From the NCBI RefSeq assembly GCF_002954405.1, contig NZ_MQWC01000004.1:2159909-2223908 (forward strand): a stretch of 64,000 nt of DNA, given 5' to 3'. Shown here piece by piece: positions 3 to 43,261 of the stretch (its first letter is position 1; each line of letters opens with the position of its first letter). The notes beneath the pieces are model-generated. The model was given only the letters and a program-made list of their open reading frames with translations, was not told the origin of the DNA and did not search any database. The DNA is from Salinibacter sp. 10B (GTDB taxonomy: Bacteria > Bacteroidota > Rhodothermia > Rhodothermales > Salinibacteraceae). Position numbers and translations under genes: made by a program.

Positions 3-3000
3 GACGGATTGGAGCCGTACCGCTTTGACCTCAACTACTCCTGGAACCCGGAGCCCGTCACGCGCACGGGTACCATCTTCTCCGACCGCGGCCTCTACAA
101 GACCGGCGAAACCGTTCACCTAAAGGGCCTCCTGCGCACGAAGACGGATGCCGACTGGCAGACGACTCGCGACAGCGTGCAGGTCGTCGTTCGTGATCCG
201 CGAGACGAGATCGTGCTGGATCGTCGTCTCCGCCCCAGCGAGCTCGGAGCCTTTGCCCTCGACTGGAACGTGCCTTCCGGGGCGGCCCTCGGCTACTACC
301 GCGTGCAGGTGCTCCCCGCCGATGCATCGGAAGAGGACGCCCGCCGCGGATACCGGAACGACCAAATCGCGTCCGGCAATTTTCAGGTGAACGCGTTCCG
401 GCGCGCGAGCTTCGCCGTGAACGCGCAGTCCGGACTCGACAGCTACGTGGCCGGTGATTTCTTCGAGGGTCGCGTGTCCGGGCACTACCTTTTCGGTGCG
501 GGCATGGCGGGCCAGCCGGTCACGATGGAGCTCAACCGCCGCTCCGGCTCGTATTCGCCGCCCGGCTTCCAGGGCTTCCGCTTCAGCCCCATCGAGACCG
601 ATTATCTCGGCGAGACGCTCCTCCGCACCGAAACTACGCTCGACTCCACGAGCAGCGTCGTGGCCGAACGGGTGCGCCTGCCCGGCAACCCCCAGGGCGC
701 CCCAGCAGAGCTCGTCTGGCGCGGCACCGTGACGGCCCCGTCCCGCCAACAGATCAGCGACCAGACGACCGTCCCGCTCCATCCCGGCCGCTACTACGTG
801 GGCCTGAAGCCGGGCACCTCGTTCATGGACCTCTCGCAGGACAGCACACTGGCGGTGGACGTTGTAACGGTGGACCCGACGGGCGCACCGGTCTCTGGGA
901 AAGACGTGACGGTCGAACTGGTGCGGCTGCAGTGGAACAGCGTGCGCGAGGTGGGGGCCGACGGACGGTTGAATTGGCGTAGCGAGCGGACCGAGACGGT
1001 CGTGCGCTCGAAGACGGTGACGACGCCGCAGGGCAAGATGAGTCGCCTCCGCATGACCGTGCCCACAGGCGGCCAGTACCGTCTCCGTGCCACGAGCCAG
1101 GACGTGCGTGGCAACACCATTCGGTCGGCGACCTACCTCTACGCCTCGGGCGAGGGGTACGTGGCCTGGCAGCGCAACAACGATGACCGGATCAACCTCG
1201 TCCCCGAGAAGACGGACTACGCCCCCGGTGAGACGGCCCGGTTGATGGTGCAATCGCCGTACGAGGAGACCACCGCCCTCATTACTGTGGAGCGAGAGGG
1301 CATCCTCACGAGCCGCGTCGAGACGCTCACGGGCAGTACACCGATGATCGAGGTGCCGATTACGGACGAATACCTGCCGAACGTCTTCGTAAGCGTGATT
1401 CTGCTGAAGGGCCGCACCGCCCCACCGAAGGCCGGGAGCGACCCCGGCGCCCCAAGCTTCAAGATCGGCTACGCGAGCCTGTCGGTAGACCCCGACCAGC
1501 AGCACCTACGCGTCGACGTGTCGCCGGACCAGGAGGAATATCGTCCGGGTGAGGAGGTGAACGTGGACCTGCAGCTGACGAATGCGAGCGGTACGGGCGT
1601 GCCCGGCGAAATTGCCTTCAGTGCGGCGGATGCGGGCGTCCTCAACCTCATCGACTACCGGCTACCCGATCCGTTCGACACGTTCTATGGCCCGCGCCCG
1701 CTCGGCGTCACGACCACCGAAACGCGCGCACGAATCGTGGAGCAGCGCAGCTATGGGCAAAAGGCCGAAAACACCGGCGGTGGAGGGACAGAGCAACGAT
1801 CCTCAGTACGGCAGGACTTCCGTCCACTCGCCCACTGGGCACCGGCCGTCGAGACCAACGCGGACGGGGAGGCCACCGTGTCGTTCGATCTGCCCGAGAG
1901 CCTGACGACGTTCCGCCTCATGGCCTCGGCGTACACCGAAAACAACAAATTCGGCGCCGACCAGACGGACATTGTCGTCACCAAGCCGCTGGTGTTGAAA
2001 GACGCCCTGCCCCGCTTCGCGCGGATCGGCGACACGTTCGAGGCCGGGGTGCTCGTCAGCAACCGCTCGGACGAGGCCGGCACCGCGACGATCACCGCCT
2101 CCGCGGACGGGCTCACGCTCCGCAACGACACGGCGAAGACGGTGCAGCTCCCCTCTGGAGCAACGCGGGAGGTCCGATTCGACTGGCGCGCCCCGACCGC
2201 GGGCGACGCGAACCTCACCTTCCGGGGACGCCTCAACGGCGAAACGGACGCGATGACGACCACGCTACCGGTAAACCGCCCGACGACCAAACGGGCGAGC
2301 GCCACCTTCGCCTCCACACAGGACACCGCCCGCGAGGCACTCCAACTCCCAAGTGAACGCGTGCCGGGCCTCGGCCAGTTCGACGTGACGCTGGCGAGCA
2401 CGGCACTCGTGGGCCTCGACGGCGCGGTGGAGCACCTCTTCGAATATCCGTACGGCTGCCTCGAACAGACCACCTCGCGCGTTCGCCCCCTCCTGGCCGG
2501 CGGCGGGCTTCTGGATGCCTTCGATCTGCAGGCGTTTGAGGAGAAAAACCGAACACAGGTGGTCCGCGACTGGCTCGGGGCTCTCAACGGCTTCTGGACG
2601 GGCAACGGCTTTGCCCTCTGGGAGGGCGGAAATCACACCAATCCGTACGTCACGGGCTACGTGTTGATGGCACTCGCGGAGGCGGAGGCCGGCGGATACG
2701 AGGTGCCACAGCCGCTCACCAACAACGCGATTGAGGCGGCGGCCACGATGGTGCGAAATCGGAGCGACCGGCCCGAATACTATTCCGAGGACGTGTGGCG
2801 CGACACGAGGGCCTTTCTACTGTACGCGCTGGCGCAACATGGGCGGGTACTAGAGAGTGAGATCAACTGGCTCGCCCGCCATCCGCCAACGAGCGTGGAG
2901 GGGCAGAGCCACCTGCTTCGCACGCTCCTCACGACCGACCGTCCGTCGCTCGATTCGTCGCAAGAACGACTGGTCACCCAGCTGCGTCAGCGCATTCGGG

Positions 3001-3971
3001 TGGAGGCGACGACGGCCTACCTGGAGGCGCCCGAGAGCGAGGACTACGGCTGGATCTTTAGCAGCGACGTGCGGGCCACTGCCTTCGGCCTTACGGCGCT
3101 TCTGGAGGCCGACCCCTCGGACGACGTTCAACAGTTGGCCCAGCGCATGATTCGATATCTGATGGATCAGCGTCAGCAGGGCCACTGGGCCTCGACGCAG
3201 GACAACGCCGCCGTGCTCACGGCCTTTCAGCACTACGTGGATGCCTACGAGGAGACTGCGCCCGACCTGACGGCGTCCGTCGAGATGGCCGGGAAACGCC
3301 TGCTGGACGCGACGTTTCAGGGTCGGAGCCTGAAGACGACCGCCGAGACGGTCTCCGCCGACGCGCTGCCATCTGAACGCGAGTTGCCGCTTGCCGTCAC
3401 GGCGTCGGGCACTGGGCCCCTCTACTACTCGATGCGCCTCACGACGTACACGGACGCACCGCAGGACGCGCTCGATCAGGGACTGCGGGTGGAGCGCACG
3501 ATCCAGCGGCTCGACGATCAGGGGGAAGCGGTGGGGACGCCACTTCAAACCGGCAACGGAACGATCACGCTGGAGCCGGGCGCCCTGGTGAAGGTGACGC
3601 TGCGCGTGTCGTCGCCGACGAGCCGCACGTACGTGGCGGTGGACGACGCCCTGCCTGCCGGGCTGGAGCCGGTGAACGAGGCCTTTGCGACGACGGATCA
3701 GGGCCTGGTGACGGAGGCGGACACGGGATCGGACCGGTGGTGGGGCTCCTTCACCCATACCGAGATGCAGGACGACCGGGTGATCTTGTTTGCCGATTAC
3801 CTGCAACAGGGCGAGCATACCTACAGCTACGTCGCCCGCGCCACGACGCCTGGCACGTTTACGCATCCGCCCGCGGAGGCGGAAATGATGTACCGACCGG
3901 AGACGCGCGGACACACCGCCACAGGGACGGTGGTCGTGACGCCGCCATCAACGTCAACGACCCAACGGTAG
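3..3971 (+). CDS. Alpha-2-macroglobulin family protein (5' partial)
   Basis: The frame is open to the window edge, so the true start lies upstream; at least 1,322 codons are present. An MG2-type domain (SDRGLYKTGETVHLKG) is near the visible N-terminus. The A2M domain (HWAPAVETNADGEATVSFDL) lies near residue 620 and the thioester motif GCLEQT near residue 816, followed by the helical thioester-containing domain. Bacterial alpha-2-macroglobulins are periplasmic or lipid-anchored protease traps that cross-link an attacking protease through the Cys-Gln thioester. The CLEQ motif is intact, so trapping ability is expected. In many bacteria the gene pairs with pbpC (PBP1C); none follows here, and the upstream side is not visible. 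The stop codon directly abuts a decayed transposase on the other strand. Confidence 0.93.
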   Translation, partial: DGLEPYRFDLNYSWNPEPVTRTGTIFSDRGLYKTGETVHLKGLLRTKTDADWQTTRDSVQVVVRDPRDEIVLDRRLRPSELGAFALDWNVPSGAALGYYRVQVLPADASEEDARRGYRNDQIASGNFQVNAFRRASFAVNAQSGLDSYVAGDFFEGRVSGHYLFGAGMAGQPVTMELNRRSGSYSPPGFQGFRFSPIETDYLGETLLRTETTLDSTSSVVAERVRLPGNPQGAPAELVWRGTVTAPSRQQISDQTTVPLHPGRYYVGLKPGTSFMDLSQDSTLAVDVVTVDPTGAPVSGKDVTVELVRLQWNSVREVGADGRLNWRSERTETVVRSKTVTTPQGKMSRLRMTVPTGGQYRLRATSQDVRGNTIRSATYLYASGEGYVAWQRNNDDRINLVPEKTDYAPGETARLMVQSPYEETTALITVEREGILTSRVETLTGSTPMIEVPITDEYLPNVFVSVILLKGRTAPPKAGSDPGAPSFKIGYASLSVDPDQQHLRVDVSPDQEEYRPGEEVNVDLQLTNASGTGVPGEIAFSAADAGVLNLIDYRLPDPFDTFYGPRPLGVTTTETRARIVEQRSYGQKAENTGGGGTEQRSSVRQDFRPLAHWAPAVETNADGEATVSFDLPESLTTFRLMASAYTENNKFGADQTDIVVTKPLVLKDALPRFARIGDTFEAGVLVSNRSDEAGTATITASADGLTLRNDTAKTVQLPSGATREVRFDWRAPTAGDANLTFRGRLNGETDAMTTTLPVNRPTTKRASATFASTQDTAREALQLPSERVPGLGQFDVTLASTALVGLDGAVEHLFEYPYGCLEQTTSRVRPLLAGGGLLDAFDLQAFEEKNRTQVVRDWLGALNGFWTGNGFALWEGGNHTNPYVTGYVLMALAEAEAGGYEVPQPLTNNAIEAAATMVRNRSDRPEYYSEDVWRDTRAFLLYALAQHGRVLESEINWLARHPPTSVEGQSHLLRTLLTTDRPSLDSSQERLVTQLRQRIRVEATTAYLEAPESEDYGWIFSSDVRATAFGLTALLEADPSDDVQQLAQRMIRYLMDQRQQGHWASTQDNAAVLTAFQHYVDAYEETAPDLTASVEMAGKRLLDATFQGRSLKTTAETVSADALPSERELPLAVTASGTGPLYYSMRLTTYTDAPQDALDQGLRVERTIQRLDDQGEAVGTPLQTGNGTITLEPGALVKVTLRVSSPTSRTYVAVDDALPAGLEPVNEAFATTDQGLVTEADTGSDRWWGSFTHTEMQDDRVILFADYLQQGEHTYSYVARATTPGTFTHPPAEAEMMYRPETRGHTATGTVVVTPPSTSTTQR

Positions 3972-4326
3972 GGGACACGGTCGAATCATCCCTCGGAATG
4001 ATGTCGAATGTACCTCCGGGTCGATCGGGCGCATTATGGCCGGAATAAAATGGTGATTCCGTGGTAATGCCAATCAACCCGTGGATGTGGTCGGACATCA
4101 CAACCCACGCGTCTAACCGAACGTACGGCCGCACCGACGGCGTCCGCCGCCATTCCTGGGCGGCGATGCACCCGGCCGCCGATAACTCCACAATCCCGTT
4201 CCGGACCTGACCGAAGAAGGGATGTCGGTCTTCGGTGCAGATTGTCACGAAATACCATCCCGACCGGCGGTAATCCCATTCGGTATGGCGGATGGTGTCA
4301 GACCGGTAGCCGTTGTACCGGGACAT
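3972..4326 (-). pseudogene. Truncated REP-associated tyrosine transposase (RAYT, Y1_Tnp family)
   Basis: Reading leftwards from an ATG at 4326 the product begins MSRYNGYRSDTIRH, then WYFVTICTEDRHPFFG, and has the HUH metal-binding motif in VMSDHIHGLIGI. This order is diagnostic of IS200/RAYT-type single-strand transposases. Past the HUH motif only part of the variable linker remains. The frame then runs into the antisense of the macroglobulin gene, so the C-terminal helix with the catalytic tyrosine is missing. It is therefore a dead 3'-truncated copy whose loss point coincides with the neighbouring stop codon. RAYTs mobilise REP palindromes; no clear REP pair is visible beside it. Overlap with the hrpB leader means hrpB must start downstream, at 4483. 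Confidence 0.75.
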
Positions 4327-4482
4327 GAAAGAGAGGGACCATCTGACCAGAGACGTGTGCCTTCCAGACACGTGTTGCCTGCCAGAAATAACGTCCACGA
4401 CACGGCACTCCTCCGAAACCCACCGTTCCCCCCACGGCTACAACGCCCACCGCCCATCTGCCACAACGCAGACACACCCTGC

Positions 4483-7005
4483 ATGCCGGATCTCCCCATC
4501 GAGGACGTACTGCCGGACCTGACGAGCGCCCTGCGCGACGCCCCGGAGGCCGTGCTCCAGGCCCCCACCGGCGCCGGCAAGACGACGCGCGTCCCCCTGG
4601 CCCTGCTGGGCGAAGAATGGCTGGGCGACCAGAAGCTCATCATGCTGGAGCCGCGGCGGCTGGCCGCTCGGTCTGCGGCTCGGTTCATGGCGAAGCAGTT
4701 GGGCGAGGAAGCTGGGCAGACGGTGGGCTACCGGGTGCGCATGGACACACAGGTGGGCCGTCAGACCCAAATTGAGGTCGTGACGGAAGGCGTGCTCACG
4801 CGTATGCTGCAGGACGACCCGGCACTTGAGGGCGTGGGGGCAGTGCTGTTCGACGAGTTTCACGAGCGCAACCTGCAGGCCGACCTCGGGCTCGCCCTCA
4901 CACTCCAGACCCGCGAGGTCTTCCGTCCGGAGCTCCGCGTCCTCGTGATGAGTGCAACGCTCGACACCGGTCCCATTGCGGAGCTGCTCGACGCCCCACT
5001 CATCGAAAGCGAGGGCCGCAGCTATCCGGTGGAGGTGCACTACCGAGACCGACCGGTGAAAGACCGCATCGAACCCGCCGTGGCGTCGAAAGTGAAGGCA
5101 GCCCTGAAGGACACCGACGGCGACGTGCTCGTCTTCCTTCCAGGAGCAGGAGAAATTCGGCGTACGAAATCACGACTGGAAGACAGCGTGCCGGACGACG
5201 TGGACCTCTATCCCCTCTTCGGCAACCTGCCGCCCGAGAAGCAGGACAGAGCCATTGAGCCGAGTCCGGAGGGACGGCGCAAGGTCGTGATTGCGACCGA
5301 CATTGCGGAGACGAGCCTTACCATCGAGGGCGTGCGCGTGGTGGTGGACAGCGGCCTCCGCCGCGCCCCGCGGTTCGACGCGAGCAGCGGCATGACACGC
5401 CTCGAAACCGTCAAGATCTCTCAGGCCTCCGCCGATCAGCGGAAAGGACGGGCCGGACGCGTGGCCCCGGGTGTCTGCTACCGCCTCTGGACCGAGCGCA
5501 CGCACCACCACCTCGACCGTCACACGCCGCCGGAGATCGAGAACGCGGACCTTGCGTCCCTTGCGCTGGAGCTCGCCACGTGGGGGACGCCCAATCCGTC
5601 CGACCTTCGCTGGCTCGACCCGCCGCCTGCCGACGCCTACGACCGCGCCCGCACGCTCCTACAGCGGCTCGGGGCGGTAGACGACGAGGGGCAGATTACC
5701 GACCACGGGCGCGAGATGTCTGATCTGGGGCTGCACCCGCGCCTGGCGCACATGCTCATCAACGCCCAGACGCTGGGGCACGGCGCGCTGGCCTGCGACC
5801 TCGCCGCCCTCCTCAGCGAGCGCGACATCTTCAAGGGCCAGGGCGAGGCGCCCGATGTAGACCTGCGCCTCCGCCTCGAAGCCCTCCATCGCCTCCGCCG
5901 CGGCGACCGTCCCACCCCCGACCACGCCCGCAACTACGTCGTCCCCTACGGCGCCGTAGGACACGTCCGCAAGGTGGCCGACCACTGGCGATCGACGCTT
6001 GGCGTCTCCCAGCACGAGGAGGGCGACATTGAGGCTTGCGGCCTCCTGACGGCGTTTGCCTACCCGGACCGCCTCGCCCAGCAGATCGAAAGCGGACGGT
6101 TTCGGCTTCGCAACGGGCAGGTCGCCGAATTACCAAATCCACAGTTGCTGTCGGACGCCGATTATCTCGTGGCTGCACACGTGGACGGCCGGCGGCAGAC
6201 GAACCGAATCTTTCTCGCCGCGCCCCTTTCGGAAAACGAGATCCTCGACTACTTTGGCGATCAGATTGAGCCGACAGAAAACGTAGCGTGGGACGAAGAC
6301 GCAGAACTGGTCCGCGCCCGGCGGCGCGACGAACTCGGCGCCCTCGTCCTCAAGGACGGGCCAATCGAGACGCCGGATCCGACGGCCATGGCCGAAGCGA
6401 TGATCGAAGGGGTGCGGAAGGAAGGGCTCGACGTACTGCCGTGGACGGATCATGCACGTCAGCTCCAGCACCGCATCCAGTTTCTGCATCACCACCTTGG
6501 CGATAACTGGCCCGATGTGACCGACGCGGCGCTGCTCGACACGCTGGCGGACTGGCTCCTGCCGCACGTCTACGACATGAAGCGGGCCGTCGACCTGCAG
6601 CAACTCAACCTCCCGCAGATCCTACGCGACCGGCTCTCGTACGAACAACGAGATCGTCTAGAATCGTGGGCACCTACGCACATTGAGGTGCCCAGTGGCT
6701 TCGACCGGCCCATCGACTATTCAGATCCAGAGACGCCGGTCCTCGCCGTGCGCCTACAGGAGATGTTTGGGCAAACCGAAACGCCGCGCATTGCGGGAGG
6801 GCAGGTGCCCCTCACGCTTCATCTGCTCTCGCCCGCCCAGCGCCCCGTCCAGATTACGCAGGACCTCGCCCACTTTTGGGAGGACACGTACTACGACGTG
6901 CGGAAAGACATGCGGGGCCGCTACTCCAAGCACTACTGGCCGGAGGACCCGCTCAACGCCACGCCCACCCACACGACGAAGGCGCAGATGGAGGCGGACG
7001 TGTAG
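4483..7005 (+). CDS. hrpB: ATP-dependent helicase HrpB
   Basis: This 840-residue DExH helicase is close to the usual HrpB length (about 800-850). The frame is open further upstream, but the start at MPDLPIEDVL is chosen because upstream residues are antisense to the RAYT remnant and conserved similarity begins here. Motifs: Walker A GAGKTT (about 30-35), motif II DEFHER (124-129), where HrpB has DEFH and HrpA has DEAH, motif III SAT (about 157), and motif VI QRKGRAGRVAPG. The C-terminal half is the HrpB_C region. HrpB proteins are cytoplasmic RNA-helicase-like ATPases of unclear physiological role. The gene ends 14 bp from the convergent dehydrogenase gene. Confidence 0.95.
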   Translation: MPDLPIEDVLPDLTSALRDAPEAVLQAPTGAGKTTRVPLALLGEEWLGDQKLIMLEPRRLAARSAARFMAKQLGEEAGQTVGYRVRMDTQVGRQTQIEVVTEGVLTRMLQDDPALEGVGAVLFDEFHERNLQADLGLALTLQTREVFRPELRVLVMSATLDTGPIAELLDAPLIESEGRSYPVEVHYRDRPVKDRIEPAVASKVKAALKDTDGDVLVFLPGAGEIRRTKSRLEDSVPDDVDLYPLFGNLPPEKQDRAIEPSPEGRRKVVIATDIAETSLTIEGVRVVVDSGLRRAPRFDASSGMTRLETVKISQASADQRKGRAGRVAPGVCYRLWTERTHHHLDRHTPPEIENADLASLALELATWGTPNPSDLRWLDPPPADAYDRARTLLQRLGAVDDEGQITDHGREMSDLGLHPRLAHMLINAQTLGHGALACDLAALLSERDIFKGQGEAPDVDLRLRLEALHRLRRGDRPTPDHARNYVVPYGAVGHVRKVADHWRSTLGVSQHEEGDIEACGLLTAFAYPDRLAQQIESGRFRLRNGQVAELPNPQLLSDADYLVAAHVDGRRQTNRIFLAAPLSENEILDYFGDQIEPTENVAWDEDAELVRARRRDELGALVLKDGPIETPDPTAMAEAMIEGVRKEGLDVLPWTDHARQLQHRIQFLHHHLGDNWPDVTDAALLDTLADWLLPHVYDMKRAVDLQQLNLPQILRDRLSYEQRDRLESWAPTHIEVPSGFDRPIDYSDPETPVLAVRLQEMFGQTETPRIAGGQVPLTLHLLSPAQRPVQITQDLAHFWEDTYYDVRKDMRGRYSKHYWPEDPLNATPTHTTKAQMEADV

Positions 7006-7019
7006 AGACTGGTTACGGC

Positions 7020-8459
7020 CTACTCTTCCCCTCCTCCGAGAAGATGTATCTTTTCCCGAAGGGCCGGGTCCGTGATCCCCTCCAGCGCATTGCGAGTATC
7101 GACGATGGAGGTCGCGTGTTCTGCAACCTGGTGGGGATCGAACGCGTCGTGGTCGGTGACGATCACCGTCGCATCGTACTGTTGCAACACCTCTGGGGTC
7201 AACTCCTCCACCGCGGGGATATCAAGGGTGCCGTTCTCAGATGTCGGGACCGAAAACGAATCGACGTGGGGGTCGTGGTAGTGGATGTTGTCAATATCCT
7301 TTTCCCGGAGAAGCTTGATGATCGTCCCCGCTGGCGAATGGCGGGTATCATCAACATTGCGCTTAAAGGCCACCCCAAGCACGAGCACGCTGGCCTCGCT
7401 GAGCTGAACCGGTTGCCGGGCGATGGCCTCGACCACCGACTCGACGACGTAGAACGGCATGCCCTCGTTAATGCGCGCCGACAGCGTGATAAAGCTCGTT
7501 TCGAAGTCGTGCTTCCGCGCCAGCCATGACAGGTAGTGCGGGTCAATCGGGATGCAGTGTCCGCCGAGCCCCGGCCCGGGATAAAACGGCATAAAGCCGA
7601 ACGGCTTGGTAGCGGCCGCCTGGATGACTTCCCACATCGACACGTCGCCAATACGGTCGCACAGCTGGGCGAGCTCGTTGACAAGGGCGATGTTGACCGA
7701 GCGGAAGATGTTTTCCAGTAGCTTTTCCATCTCGGCCACCTTTGGGTTGGAGACCGCGTGGACCTCCGCCACGATCTGCTCCAGTGCCTTTTTGGTAAGG
7801 TGCGTACACGTCTCGGTCGCCCCACCCGCCACGACCGGCGTATTGGCCGTCGTGTATTCGTCGTTGCCCGGATCGATGCGCTCGGGACTGTGGGCGAGGA
7901 AATAGTCTTCCCCGAGCTCCAATCCCTTCTCCCGAGCCGCCTCTTCCAAGATGGGCTGCACCACTCCCTCCGTCGTATCCGGATAGGTGGTACTCTTAAG
8001 CACGATGAGCTGTCCCGGACGAAGGTGCTCCGCAATTGACCGGGCTGCCGACTCGATATACGACGTGTCGGGTTCGTTCGTCTCCGTCACCGGGGTCGGG
8101 ACGCAGATATAGAACACGTCGATCTCATCACTGCCGGCGAAGTTCGCCGTCCCCCGTAGACGGCCCTCTTCCACAAGTTGACGAATGGTGTCATCGTCGA
8201 GATCTTCGATATAATTCGCCCCCGCATTCAACTGCTGGACGCGCCCCTCATCGAGATCAATGCCCACCGTATCAAAGGCCTGTTCGGCGTACTCAACGGC
8301 CAGGGGAAGACCTACGTATCCCAGTCCAACGACCCCGATGGTGGCCTGTGCTGCGTCGAGACGCTGAGCAAGCTGTCGAGCCGCTGCCGATTGGTCCGCG
8401 CGCGCCGCCGACGTGGATCCGTTCGACGAAAGAGGAGAAGAAGCGGTCTCGAGATCCAT
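7020..8459 (-). CDS. Nucleotide-sugar 6-dehydrogenase (UDP-GlcNAc/UDP-Glc dehydrogenase family)
   Basis: A 479-residue UDPG/MGDP dehydrogenase. The NAD-binding Rossmann motif GVVGLGYVGLPLA is at about 42-54. The central family motif is present (VAEMEKLLEN), and the catalytic cysteine lies in GPGLGGHCIPIDPHYL (Cys302). The YVGLPLA signature and overall length fit the WbpA/WecC branch that oxidises UDP-N-acetylhexosamines to uronic acids; UDP-glucose as substrate is also possible. It is the most downstream gene of the minus-strand polysaccharide cluster, 71 bp after the WecA-like fusion, and would supply an acidic sugar for the polymer. Its start at MDLETASS adds about 35 residues before the Rossmann fold, so a later start is possible. 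Confidence 0.9.
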   Translation of the reverse strand: MDLETASSPLSSNGSTSAARADQSAAARQLAQRLDAAQATIGVVGLGYVGLPLAVEYAEQAFDTVGIDLDEGRVQQLNAGANYIEDLDDDTIRQLVEEGRLRGTANFAGSDEIDVFYICVPTPVTETNEPDTSYIESAARSIAEHLRPGQLIVLKSTTYPDTTEGVVQPILEEAAREKGLELGEDYFLAHSPERIDPGNDEYTTANTPVVAGGATETCTHLTKKALEQIVAEVHAVSNPKVAEMEKLLENIFRSVNIALVNELAQLCDRIGDVSMWEVIQAAATKPFGFMPFYPGPGLGGHCIPIDPHYLSWLARKHDFETSFITLSARINEGMPFYVVESVVEAIARQPVQLSEASVLVLGVAFKRNVDDTRHSPAGTIIKLLREKDIDNIHYHDPHVDSFSVPTSENGTLDIPAVEELTPEVLQQYDATVIVTDHDAFDPHQVAEHATSIVDTRNALEGITDPALREKIHLLGGGEE

Positions 8460-8530
8460 GTGTATAGGAGAGTTAAAAAAGGAATACGACGCTCAGCAAC
8501 CGGACGCGTGCAATTTGTGCGCCATGCCAC

Positions 8531-10399
8531 TTACTGTGCCACCAGCTCCGCGTCTTCGGCAACAATCGTGGAGGGATCAGGCTCCAGGGGCTCCACGGTC
8601 ACCCCAAAGGCCATACAGGGAATGTCCGCCTCTCGACACATGCGGTACACAGCCCGCTGTCGCGTTTCGGACATCGTCGTGGTCGTTACAATCACCTCAT
8701 CCACCTTCTTCTCCCGACAGACCCGCACGATGTCCTCCCCGGTGCCCTCTACTTTCAATCCCTGAACGGTTTGCCCTTGCTTCAAAGGATCATCGTCTAT
8801 GAACCCGATGGGACACCGGCGGAGTTCCGGGTTTCGGCGCAGTTCGCGGAGCGTAAGCACCCCTGCATCCCCGGCCCCATAGAGCAACACCCGCCGCCCG
8901 TCCGTCCGATTTGCCGCAAAATACTGGCGAAGGCCCCGAAATCCAAAGCGGATGCCCACGATGGCCAGAGTGACGATCATCCAGTCGATAACGAGCACGG
9001 ATACCGACACAGCTCCCGCCCCGTGGAGAAGGGCGTACACCCCACCCGTCGCAAGTTCGGCCGCAACGGTGGCCCCTCCTGCTCGCACGAGCTCCGGCGT
9101 TCCCGCGTGGCGCCAAATGCCGCGGTACAGCCCCATGGCGTAAAATACGAGCACCTTCACCGCCACGACGAGCGGAAGCCCCTCCAACATCCAGGTCTCT
9201 TGAATGCCCGAGAGTCCTCCCTCGTATCGAAGGTAGTGCGCCACGATAAAGGCAGCCCCCACGAGAAAAACGTCCGCAAACATGCCCGCCACCTCTTTCC
9301 ACCGGTCGCCGAACGCATTGTGCAGAATGCGCAACGGCCGGGTCGGCGACGCGGGGGCGCCATCCCCCTGCGCTCCTCCCGCCCGGTACACGTTTGCCCG
9401 TGCGAGGTGAACCCCAAAGACTGCAAGGGCCGCCCCTACAAAAATGCTCACCGCGTAAAACAGAACAACATCCACAAAGAGCACCACCAGCGCAAGCGCT
9501 CCGGACAGCAGGCTCAACCCGTAGAGCATAAGCACGGCATGGCGCTCTGACAACCCTAGAAAGACCAATCGGTGAGAGGCATGGTCGCGTCCTCCTTGTG
9601 ACACCGGACGGCCCGCCAACCGGCGCATGAAGGTCACAAGCGTGGTGTCCAGAATGGGAACGGCCAGTACGGCGAGGGGAATGAGCCCCACCGCCAACTG
9701 CCCGGCCACGTCCGCCTGCCGTTGAGTGATAAGCGTAAGAGCCGCAATCGAGAAGCCGAGAAATAAGCTTCCGCAGTCGCCCATAAAGATCCGGGCCGGC
9801 TTAAAGTTGAACACCAGAAACCCCAGGGCCGCCCCACTGATGGCGCCCCCCACGGCCATGGTCGTAGTACTTCCCGAGAGCCCGGCAAACACCGTCACGA
9901 CGAGGGCCGCAATCCCGGCGATGCCCGCCGACAGACCGTCCATGTTGTCGAGGAGGTTCACCGCATTGGTGATGCCAACCACCCAGAGAAGGGTGAGAGG
10001 CAAAGACATCCAGAGCGGCCAGTGCGCCCCAAAGGCATATCCGGAGTACAGTAGCAATCCGGTTGCAATGACCTGAGCAGCGAGCTTTGCGGCCGGCCGG
10101 ATGCGGGCAAGATCGTCAATGGCTCCCACCACAAACATCAGGGTCGCCCCGCTCCAGATCGCCCACACCTCCTCAAGCGGAAGAACCGAAAAAATGCCGA
10201 GCGTCGCTGCGCCATAGATCGCAATCCCGCCCATCAGAGCCGTGGGGCGTCCGTGCCACCGATCCGACCGCGGGTACGCGACCCAGTCGAAGCGACGAGC
10301 AACATGAATTGTGAGGGGGGTAAGCACTACCACCGCCGCCGCCGCTACGGAGAGGGCCCAAACGATAGGCCATAACATGTCTGTATCCAATGGAGTCAT
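8531..10399 (-). CDS. Fusion: WecA/MraY-type polyprenyl-phosphate sugar-1-P transferase + N-terminal half of a CapD-type protein
   Basis: This 622-residue membrane protein has two parts. Residues 1 to about 330 form a glycosyltransferase-4 (WecA/MraY/TagO) enzyme with the Asp-rich loop VGAIDDLARI, NAVNLLDNMDGLSAG, FMGDCGSLFLGF and a C-terminal HASHR motif. Such enzymes start lipid-linked glycan synthesis by moving a sugar-1-phosphate to undecaprenyl phosphate. From about residue 350 a second module resembles the N-terminus of CapD/WbpM/PglF: four membrane helices and a nucleotide-binding Rossmann domain (VLLYGAGDAGVLTLRELRR). The SDR dehydratase domain that normally follows is absent. The ATG at 10399 is preferred over an upstream frame of 40 non-homologous residues. 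It probably initiates the repeat unit of the polymer made by this cluster. Confidence 0.85.
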   Translation of the reverse strand: MTPLDTDMLWPIVWALSVAAAAVVVLTPLTIHVARRFDWVAYPRSDRWHGRPTALMGGIAIYGAATLGIFSVLPLEEVWAIWSGATLMFVVGAIDDLARIRPAAKLAAQVIATGLLLYSGYAFGAHWPLWMSLPLTLLWVVGITNAVNLLDNMDGLSAGIAGIAALVVTVFAGLSGSTTTMAVGGAISGAALGFLVFNFKPARIFMGDCGSLFLGFSIAALTLITQRQADVAGQLAVGLIPLAVLAVPILDTTLVTFMRRLAGRPVSQGGRDHASHRLVFLGLSERHAVLMLYGLSLLSGALALVVLFVDVVLFYAVSIFVGAALAVFGVHLARANVYRAGGAQGDGAPASPTRPLRILHNAFGDRWKEVAGMFADVFLVGAAFIVAHYLRYEGGLSGIQETWMLEGLPLVVAVKVLVFYAMGLYRGIWRHAGTPELVRAGGATVAAELATGGVYALLHGAGAVSVSVLVIDWMIVTLAIVGIRFGFRGLRQYFAANRTDGRRVLLYGAGDAGVLTLRELRRNPELRRCPIGFIDDDPLKQGQTVQGLKVEGTGEDIVRVCREKKVDEVIVTTTTMSETRQRAVYRMCREADIPCMAFGVTVEPLEPDPSTIVAEDAELVAQ

Positions 10400-17804: not shown

Positions 17805-18674
17805 ATGAATTTGGTGTGGGAGGGGGGACGAGCTGACGGACCAGCAATCGCAGCATATCTGCGTAGATAAACCCGACGACGCTCTCGACTCGATACTCGA
17901 AATCGCGGCAGAGCCCGACATTTCAGAAGCCAAGCAAAGGTCCGCTCCACGACCCAGCGGCGCGGGAAGACCTGAAAGGAACCGTCTCTGGCTTTTTTGA
18001 CGACCTCGACGGTCCATCCCCCGTCTCCTCAGCCCACTCGGCGAAGGGCTCTCCGCCGTATCCGCCGTCGACCCATAGGTGGGAGAGAGCCGAGGAAGAT
18101 CGGCCTTGCCCTGCGCAAAAAGCCGCTTTCCTCCCTCGCGGTATCCGACGTCAGCGGTCGTGACGACAACCTCGACGGGAAGGCCCTCCGTGTTGACCAT
18201 CAAGTACCGCTTTTGGCCGACCAATCCCTTGGCTCCGTCGAACCCACGCTTTTCACTCGTTTCCGCCGTTCGGACCGACCGGCTGTCGAGAATCGCGGCG
18301 CTTGGAGTGTACCTTCGGCCTTGCACCTTACGCCAGCGCTGGTGGAGGGCGTCGTAGATCCGTTCGAGAGTGCCATCAAGACGCCACCGGCTGAAGTAGG
18401 CATGGACCGTATGCCAGTTCGGGGTAAAGTCGCCGGTCAGGTCTCGCCACTGACACCCGTTTTTCAACACGTAGAAGATCCCGTCGACGACCTCTCCCAT
18501 GTCGGAGGTTCGCTGGTCGCCTCCCGAGCGGGCCGGTGGAATCAGCGGTTCGATCAACGCCCACTGCTTATCGGTAAGGTCCGAGGTGTAGGATTTGCGC
18601 ATCGATTCAGAAAAGGAAAGGGTTCCAGAGCAAGGAAAGAAGCTTCCAGAACGCCAAATTTCGTAGACGGATTC
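17805..18674 (-). mobile_element. IS5-family insertion sequence, complete ends, dead transposase
   Basis: The element is 870 bp. Left end GAGTGTGTCTATGAATTTGG and the inverse of the right end GAATCCGTCTACGAAATTTGG form imperfect terminal inverted repeats. TTA lies on both sides (17802-17804 and 18675-18677), the 3-bp TNA duplication typical of the IS1031/IS427 side of the IS5 family. The encoded transposase is broken by frameshifts. The right-hand TTA is shared with a 158-bp MITE that starts at the next base. Confidence 0.82.
17813..18602 (-). pseudogene. IS5-family transposase, frameshifted
   Basis: The N-terminus is a typical IS5-type DUF4096 region: SDLTDKQWALIEPLIPPA, then VLKNGCQWRDL. 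The DDE core follows (AILDSRSVRTAE, GFDGAKGLVGQKRYLMVNT). After GKADLPRL the reading frame breaks. WVDGGYGGEPFAEWAE is in a second frame, VFPRRWVVERTFAWL in a third, and CRDFEYRVESVVGFIYADML back in another, ending at a TAG at 17813. At least three separate frame changes are needed to rebuild one protein, too many for programmed frameshifting. The IS is therefore unable to move by itself. Confidence 0.88.
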
Positions 18675-18677
18675 TTA

Positions 18678-18835
18678 GAGACTGTTTTGATTTTTGAGCG
18701 GGTTGAGAATCGACGAGACAATTTCCCAGGGATTGGAGGTCCGTCCGTTGCTCAGTAGGCGCCCCGATGGATTGCAACGATCTGCAGTCGTCGCGCTCTG
18801 CTTGAACTGCCATCGTGTGAAACCAAAACAGTCTC
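18678..18835 (+). mobile_element. 158-bp MITE, copy 1 (next to IS5)
   Basis: The element begins GAGACTGTTTTGATTTTTGA and ends with the inverse repeat TGAAACCAAAACAGTCTC, flanked by TTA on both sides (18675-18677 and 18836-18838). The same sequence recurs inverted at 43071-43228 and 40402-40559 with equal length. It has no transposase, and a 48-codon frame runs through it without stop in all three copies. The TTA flank and GAGACTG end suggest mobilisation by an IS5-family transposase. Confidence 0.85.
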
Positions 18836-18998
18836 TTAGTCCCAACTTGGCTGAACGCGATCTATTTTTCTATGCAACCGGATCAGTTACACAATTATCA
18901 GGGCACAACCCGGATACGACCCGGCTGCTCCTGCTCTCTAGCTACAACTGTACTCAAGATGCGCAAAATGTGCCGCAGCTTTCAACCTAAAGAAGGCG

Positions 18999-38883: not shown

Positions 38884-38922
38884 GAAAATATATACCCCGC
38901 CCCCTCTAAAGGAGCGGGGTAG
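38884..38922 (-). terminator. Rho-independent terminator of the 45-codon gene
   Basis: On the minus strand ACCCCGC-TCC-tttag-AGGGGGCGGGGT forms a strong G+C stem (38894-38920) with a short loop, followed by TATATATTTTCC. It lies 38 bp past the stop of the small gene at 38958-39095. It is the clearest intrinsic terminator in the window. Confidence 0.8.
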
Positions 38923-38957
38923 TATCTGACATTGAGCCAGAGATGTTTTTTCCGATA

Positions 38958-39095
38958 CTACCTTTGCTCAACCCCACACGAACTCTCACAGTCCGAATGG
39001 GGATCCAAATCGGAGGGAGCAGCGGCAGCCATCTCGTATCGTTCTTCGAGTTTCTCCACTGAGAAGGTTTCGTTTGAGAAGGTTTCGTTCTCCAT
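38958..39095 (-). CDS. Small 45-residue protein, possible modified-peptide precursor
   Basis: A short gene starting ATG at 39095. The product opens MENETFSNETFS, has an EKLEERYEMAAA segment, and ends with an Asp/Ser-rich tail with two cysteines (DCESSCGVEQR). The 15-nt segment coding NETFS is duplicated in tandem. An acidic, helix-prone LEER-type leader followed by an Ala-rich hinge and a small Cys/Ser-rich C-terminus is the layout of many ribosomal peptide (RiPP) precursors. A strong terminator follows and an A+T-rich upstream region is present, both supporting a real transcript. No modifying enzyme is in the window and the family is not recognised. Confidence 0.5.
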   Translation of the reverse strand: MENETFSNETFSVEKLEERYEMAAAAPSDLDPHSDCESSCGVEQR

Positions 39096-39504: not shown

Positions 39505-40085
39505 ATGCCCGACCGCTCTGAACCTTCCGCCCCACACGTCTACCAGATCAAGGCTCGTTTTCTTCGAATTAGTCCGATGGTCTGGCGGCGCTTTCTGCTT
39601 CCCGACCAGGAGACGCTCGGCAAGCTTCACCGAGCAATTCAGGTCGCCTTCGGCTAGACGGACGTGCATCTGCCCCGGTTCGACATTCATGGCCTGACCT
39701 ACGGGCTCTCCCACCCCGGCGGTCGGCCGTTCGACGTAGAAGCTGGCCAGGTTTCTCTCGCCTCCCTGCAGCTGCGCGAAGGCGAGACGTTTCGCTATAC
39801 CTACAATTTCACAGATGGATGGGAGCACGACATCCGCCTTGAACAGAAGTGCTTTGAGCAGAGGCTTCCCCACGACGAGGAGCAGAGCGATCCGATCCCG
39901 CACGGGCGATCCTGGAAGAGGCCCTGTTGAGGACTGCGGCGGCCCGTGGGCCTACCAGAAGCTGATCGCGACCTGCAAGCGCGCTCCTTTGGAGGAATAC
40001 CTGCGGCTCTGTCTCTGGTTGGGCGAACTCTTCGATCCGTCTGTCTTCGACCGGCAGAACGTCAATGAGAAGCTCCAAAGTGGCG
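39505..40085 (+). pseudogene. Plasmid pRiA4b ORF-3-like protein (IS1096 passenger-type), broken
   Basis: From ATG 39505 the product reads VYQIKARFLRISPMVWRRFL, then LGKLHRAIQVAFG and meets TAG at 39655, where the family has Trp (AFGW). The frame continues with VHLPRFDIHGLTYG and FRYTYNFTDGWEHDIRLEQ. It then shifts into another frame with VEDCGGPWAYQKLIATCKRA and ELFDPSVFDRQNVNEKL. All family blocks are present in order, so it is one gene killed by a nonsense change and at least one indel. This family often rides on insertion sequences. Confidence 0.82.
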
Positions 40086-40135: not shown

Positions 40136-40401
40136 TTAAAGATTCTGGAGGAGGTGCTCCCGATAGTCGTCGTCCCATCCAGCACGCTTTCGTTTGTTTT
40201 TCGTCCCGGCGTCGACCCGATCGTCCTGTTTGACAGCAGAGGCAACAAGCCGCCTTACGAGCGCCAAGTTCACCGCCGCGTTCTGGGTTCGCACCTAGCT
40301 GTGGTCCTCCCTGAAGGCCACATCGAGCACCCAGTGCAGCCCATTTTCGATCTGCCAGTGCCGCCGGGACGCCTCCAGAATATTCTCGGCGTCGGCCTTG
40401 A
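40136..40401 (-). pseudogene. ISAs1-family transposase, C-terminal remnant
   Basis: Reading left from 40401: KADAENILEASRRHWQIENG and LHWVLDVAFREDHS, a TAG, then VRTQNAAVNLALVRRLVASA and KRAGWDDDYREHLLQNL with a stop at 40136. This is the conserved C-terminus of ISAs1 (H-repeat) transposases. The N-terminal portion is gone: MITE copy 4 begins at exactly the residue before KADAEN, and no ISAs1 sequence is found on its other side. One internal nonsense codon is also present. Confidence 0.82.
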
Positions 40402-40559
40402 GAGACTGTTTTGATTTCACACGATCGCATTTCAGGCTGAGCGTAACGACCGCAGGTCGTCGCAATCTCTGTGTTAGGGGCTTCCGAACGATTGAGGGTC
40501 CCCCAGCTCGACGAAACACCTCTGCGATTTTCAATCCGGCCAAAAATCAAACCAGTCTC
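40402..40559 (+). mobile_element. 158-bp MITE, copy 4 (inserted in ISAs1 remnant)
   Basis: Ends GAGACTGTTTTGATTTCAC and AAAAATCAAACCAGTCTC, flanked by TGA on the left and TTA on the right (a degraded TTA pair). It is in the same orientation as copy 5 and has the same 158-bp length. On the minus strand its open frame runs into the ISAs1 remnant in frame. Confidence 0.82.
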
Positions 40560-40671
40560 TTAAAGATGCTGTGTTACCGAGTGTCAGGCTCCAGGATGAA
40601 GCGACGGGTCGAACGGTACTCCGTTCTTCAACACTCCGAAGCAGATGCGCATCGATCCGTCGGAGATGGTA

Positions 40672-42959: not shown

Positions 42960-43070
42960 CCCGTCTTTCGCGGCTAGGCCTCAACATTGGGAAAGTTGAC
43001 CTCACGTGTTGACAAACGCGGAGACGTTGGTGCCCCCCCACGCCCTGAGTGAAACGAGGAGGTGCTTTTA

Positions 43071-43228
43071 GAGACTGTTTTGATTTCACACGATGACAGT
43101 TCAGGCAGAGCGCGACGACTGCAGATCGTCGGGATCCAGCAGGGGCTCCTTCTGAGCAACGGACGGCCCTCCAATTCCTGCGAAATATCTCGTCGATTCT
43201 CAACCCGATCAAAAATCAAAACAGTCTC
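43071..43228 (+). mobile_element. 158-bp MITE, copy 5
   Basis: Perfect ends GAGACTGTTTTGATTT and AAATCAAAACAGTCTC with TTA on both sides (43068-43070, 43229-43231). It is the best preserved copy. Its reverse complement aligns base for base with copy 1 apart from scattered substitutions. It lies between the oxidoreductase stop and the 3' end of the convergent dehydrogenase-like gene. Confidence 0.88.
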
Positions 43229-43261
43229 TTAGAGTGCTCCCGGGCCCCATGCTCTTTTCCT

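Follow-up and report, generated by a model that had tools for sequence, protein, structure and literature searches.

In ChrPC a prenyltransferase is fused to a cyclase, and the fused enzyme modifies an internal Trp (Hubrich et al., Chem 2024, doi 10.1016/j.chempr.2024.07.026, as described in PMC13290415). In daptides the C-terminal Thr is converted to an amine, and MpaP was proposed to release the core (PMC10036551). A like role was proposed for EpeP in epipeptides (PMC10885120). Other systems comparable to the locus reported here are the Trp-prenylated peptides of ComQ/ComX and PalQ/PalX (PMC10853753) and the SPASM radical-SAM maturases (CefB, PapB and TIGR04463 models).

We analysed a 45-codon gene within a 64,000-nucleotide stretch of the Salinibacter sp. 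10B genome (the window). Its product shares a leader with small precursor peptides from other genomes of the phylum (the relatives). Judged by its sequence, the gene would encode a precursor of the RRE-M50/ChrPC-like RiPP leader family, likely an orphan after cluster loss or lone arrival and probably giving no mature product; we put the probability of this reading at roughly 70%.

The relatives’ clusters were like those of ChrPC-type polycyclic isoprenoid RiPPs, as far as the source portrays them, in having a fusion of a trans-IDS-like prenyltransferase with a MstE/SHC-like cyclase, and short precursors with a Trp in the core, near the leader. The window peptide has the same leader as the relatives’ precursors, but it lacks Trp, and its genome yielded no prenyltransferase-cyclase. 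Because the Trp and the enzyme were both absent, we rejected membership in the ChrPC type proper. With daptides the relatives shared a related M50 protease, whereas the window peptide ends in Arg instead of the invariant Thr, and no daptide modification enzymes were seen beside the window ORF or the relatives. The short precursors and isoprenoid-synthase-fold prenyltransferases of the relatives resembled the ComQ/ComX and PalQ/PalX systems. The leader is a different one, however, and the window peptide has neither a Trp nor such an enzyme. An enzyme similar to the SPASM maturases occurred in some relatives’ clusters, one of which has a Cys-containing, Trp-less core resembling that of the window peptide, but none was found beside the window ORF, or in its genome with one profile.

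The reading frame and its peptide

The ORF lies on the minus strand (39095–38958), runs from an ATG start to a TAG stop and encodes MENETFSNETFSVEKLEERYEMAAAAPSDLDPHSDCESSCGVEQR. This agreed with the original prediction of a 45-residue product carrying a tandem NETFS duplication. The duplication can be read directly from the DNA as a near-perfect, in-frame 15-bp repeat (39061–39090, minus strand). The leader motif, FSVEKLEERYEM, occupies residues 11–22 (39030–39065, minus strand) and matches the family consensus given below. It is followed by an Ala stretch and, at a boundary suggested by the family alignment, by the putative core PSDLDPHSDCESSCGVEQR (38961–39017, minus strand), with two Cys. 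The peptide contains no Trp at all, and its C-terminal residue is Arg.

By its length alone the ORF is within chance, because 115 ORFs of at least 40 aa were found within 33–45 kb of the window. The leader homology is what sets it apart from a chance frame. Upstream of the ORF there was no sigma-70 promoter match, and no paralogue of the peptide was found in its own genome. Neither the 26 other genomes of the same family nor the same-genus genomes searched gave a significant match. Scans of the peptide with Pfam and NCBIfam gave nothing. A single-peptide tblastn against plasmids and phages returned no genuine match, and no match was confirmed in pattern searches of genome contigs and viral contigs.

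A terminator-like hairpin among mobile-element remnants

The stop codon is followed, after 36 bases, by an intrinsic-terminator-like hairpin with a 13-bp stem and a 3-nt loop (38921–38893, minus strand), and then by a U-rich tail, UAUAUAUUUUCC (38892–38883, minus strand). The folding energy of the 81-nt 3’ stretch was −34 kcal/mol, compared with −18.8 on average for shuffles (z = −5.0). Among the terminator-like matches in the stretches scanned, this stem was the longest. The predicted hairpin is real and strong; the tail is not quite textbook, since an A breaks the U-rich run. The accompanying statement that terminators are rare in the window was not borne out for loose terminator-like matches. 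These were about as frequent as in shuffles at 1–20 kb and 45–64 kb, and fell below the shuffles at 30–48 kb. An upstream inverted repeat, considered as an RNA element, folded no better than shuffles and was rejected.

The local G + C content was 45–50%, versus 59% across the window. As predicted, the ORF stands alone among mobile-element remnants. Its neighbours are a transposase-like fragment with a weak DDE_5 match (~38.3–38.6 kb), a broken PRiA4_ORF3-like gene split over several frames (39505–39930) and a repeated element of ~165 bp. The latter is present at 18673–18836, 40395–40570 and 43070–43233, in both orientations and with 72–90% identity. The copy at 18.7 kb adjoins a transposase-like ORF.

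With the hairpin as the strongest element of the locus and IS debris on its flanks, the site could be read as a non-coding RNA or a leftover IS-borne terminator, in which the ORF is incidental. An Rfam scan gave no match, however, and such a reading would turn the protein-level homology described next into a coincidence. We regard it as extremely improbable.

Leader homology to RiPP precursors

As an unaided query, the 45-aa peptide was run against 394 genomes of the phylum. Its two best outside matches had 47–48% identity, with E values per genome of 7e-4 and 2.5e-3. Both were small precursor peptides within RiPP-type clusters. One (L013/L022) is a 61-aa peptide adjoining a SPASM radical-SAM gene and the other (L014/L023) an array of six peptides. 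Of the weaker matches of the same query (L002–L005, L015–L018), L004 and L015–L018 proved on reading to be overlapping or out-of-frame chance alignments and were discarded. A first profile, built from the peptides of these two loci, added peptides from G110, G123, G416 (two) and G029, of the same order.

The profile A3 was built from 12 precursors, drawn from six other genomes in the phylum, with the window sequence left out. Against 27 genomes of the same family, it gave the window ORF as the sole significant match (E = 3.4e-7), the next one being at 0.036. Within the window the ORF scored 35.1 bits, and the best of 5000 residue shuffles 12.4 bits. In a leave-one-out analysis the true members reached 19–59 bits, five of the 12 (19.0–33.8 bits) falling below the window peptide, which therefore fits the family as well as its members do.

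The family consensus is F-x-V-E-E-L-E-x-R-x-E-M, in which L, E, R and E are invariant in the 12 relatives. Membership was defined by an N-terminal F-x-V-E-x-L-E-x-R-x-E-[ML], a peptide length of 31–84 aa and a variable tail, all of which are found in the window peptide. As aligned, its homology to the family lies in the leader. To this extent the RiPP-like character guessed in the original prediction holds: the EKLEERYEM helix is the conserved motif of precursors whose genes neighbour those for modification enzymes and a RiPP protease. Neither the window peptide nor four tested relatives had a useful Pfam or NCBIfam model match.

The acidic helix might instead have come to resemble a leader by convergence, in a small secreted or cytosolic protein unrelated to RiPPs. 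The motif consists of common residues in a short amphipathic helix, and for a single pairwise match an E of 7e-4 per genome falls short of significance once 394 genomes are searched. The independently built profile, in contrast, found nothing comparable to the window ORF in the 27 genomes, and its score is far from the range of the shuffles. The size, start position and layout, with a leader and then a variable tail, also agree with the family. We therefore consider convergence very unlikely, and retain the reading as a precursor of this leader family.

Gene clusters of the relatives

The relatives’ precursors adjoin an M50 intramembrane protease with HExxH and NPFxRxDGYW motifs and an N-terminal PqqD/RRE-like part. 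It was nearest to the daptide model NF041824 (E = 3e-39) and to the YydH/LiaK models, while remaining below their cut-offs. In G029 the M50 gene and the precursor were on different contigs. Most clusters also encoded a two-domain protein, isoprenoid-synthase-like at the N-terminus, with conserved DxxxD and DDxxDxxxD, and resembling a squalene-hopene/MstE-like cyclase at the C-terminus; the trans-IDS-like prenyltransferase occurred with or without the cyclase. A SPASM radical SAM was present in some clusters, and a P450-like protein, judged by the appearance of its sequence, in one.

In G315 (C1:1446363–1447333) six tandem precursors of 31–46 aa, with near-identical leaders and differing cores, lie ahead of a prenyltransferase-cyclase and an M50 gene. 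In G110 (C1:977000–996000) the precursor, prenyltransferase-cyclase, M50, radical-SAM-like and P450-like proteins are encoded at 3108–9410 of the extracted region. Two Hymenobacter plasmids (NZ_CP040937.1 and NZ_CP053909.1) have a compact cluster of a cyclase-less prenyltransferase, an M50 and one Trp precursor, all annotated as hypothetical proteins.

Trp was present in the precursors beside the prenyltransferase-cyclase fusion in G104, G110, G123, G416 (C116) and G029, and in the two Hymenobacter plasmid precursors beside the cyclase-less prenyltransferase. It was also found in five of the six G315 peptides, the sixth carrying a Trp in its own core (GWYTV). The rule does not hold throughout, because a cluster on plasmid 2 of Gemmatirosa kalamazoonensis (~5250–8926) has a prenyltransferase-cyclase and an M50, and its weak precursor candidate (SLEERIEF) is without Trp. 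The C-terminus of this candidate resembles a PEP-CTERM signal. At L041 (G416:C102), the precursor has a Cys-containing core and no Trp, and the 8.2-kb contig holds a radical SAM and no prenyltransferase. The same locus (659–6308) also encodes an LpxL-like, acyltransferase-looking protein, an M50 and a TPR protein.

By analogy with these clusters, the N-terminal helix of the window peptide would serve as the binding site for the RRE/PqqD-like domain of partner enzymes. The C-terminal part beyond the Ala stretch would form the core, freed by an M50 intramembrane protease at a predicted site near EMAAAA|P. Core release by M50 near the Ala stretch, as proposed for MpaP and EpeP, would be the most likely route. 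That the peptide belongs to a maturing system is what we infer from the leader homology.

Partner enzymes in the Salinibacter genome

The genome is 99.97% complete. An RRE/PqqD-like M50 protease was not found in it or in the window; the genome has two generic M50/S2P-type proteases, and such matches also occur in most genomes of the family. A prenyltransferase-cyclase was not found in the window, nor in the genome with one distant query, which gave matches in six of the eight genomes searched, the lowest at 28% identity. No family radical SAM was found within the window, and no family SPASM radical SAM at E ≤ 0.001 in the genome, by a 3-row profile used without a positive control. No LanB/LanM, radical-SAM or other maturase gene was found beside the ORF. 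A reading as a class I or LanC-dependent lanthipeptide was rejected. No LanC-like cyclase was found in the genome by a search that matched two other genomes and one control, and no LanB dehydratase by a search that matched no control genome either. We do not class the window peptide as a lanthipeptide, or as an established prenylated RiPP.

A functional precursor could still be matured in trans into a Cys-containing secreted peptide, by unlinked enzymes of the genome, one of them a general S2P-type protease and the other a modification enzyme that escaped recognition. The intact frame, the dedicated terminator, the two generic M50/S2P proteases and the Trp-less, Cys-core relative beside a radical-SAM enzyme at L041 all speak for it. 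Against it, neither an M50-RRE nor a prenyltransferase-cyclase nor a family radical SAM turned up in the genome, and most related genomes without the peptide also have generic S2P proteases. We hold this unlikely. It is more doubtful again that production continues and an unrecognised enzyme acts in trans to give a Trp-less, Cys-containing product, which would make the peptide a branch of the leader family that functions outside a cluster and has parted from the prenylating enzyme. An orphan precursor is the most likely status, because none of the three partner enzymes of the family was found in so complete a genome.

G004, from a different genus of the family, carries a decayed RRE-M50 pseudogene (E = 6.6e-43; contig C289, ~9024–10083, minus strand) with a TGA and a TAG inside. 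It adjoins a carboxypeptidase-regulatory-like gene of the same kind as at two of the relatives’ clusters (L039 and L042); no precursor was seen on the contig. The pseudogene suggests that the system was once present in the family and is decaying there.

Fate of the gene and its significance

From its sequence, the gene is probably transcribable and without its enzymes, and looks like a stranded precursor, possibly in decay. The ORF may still be under selection, since the frame is intact and the terminator strong; the sequences comparable for estimating selection come from distant genomes only, with no close orthologue. The Trp-less core is compatible with two histories: the prenylating enzyme was lost, or the peptide descends from a branch with Cys cores, like that of L041.

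The 12-peptide leader profile offers a route to small precursor genes that are poorly matched by Pfam and NCBIfam models. A kind of RiPP described only recently would gain a divergent orphan precursor in the window peptide. Together with the decayed M50 of G004, this suggests that such clusters enter this lineage and decay in it.
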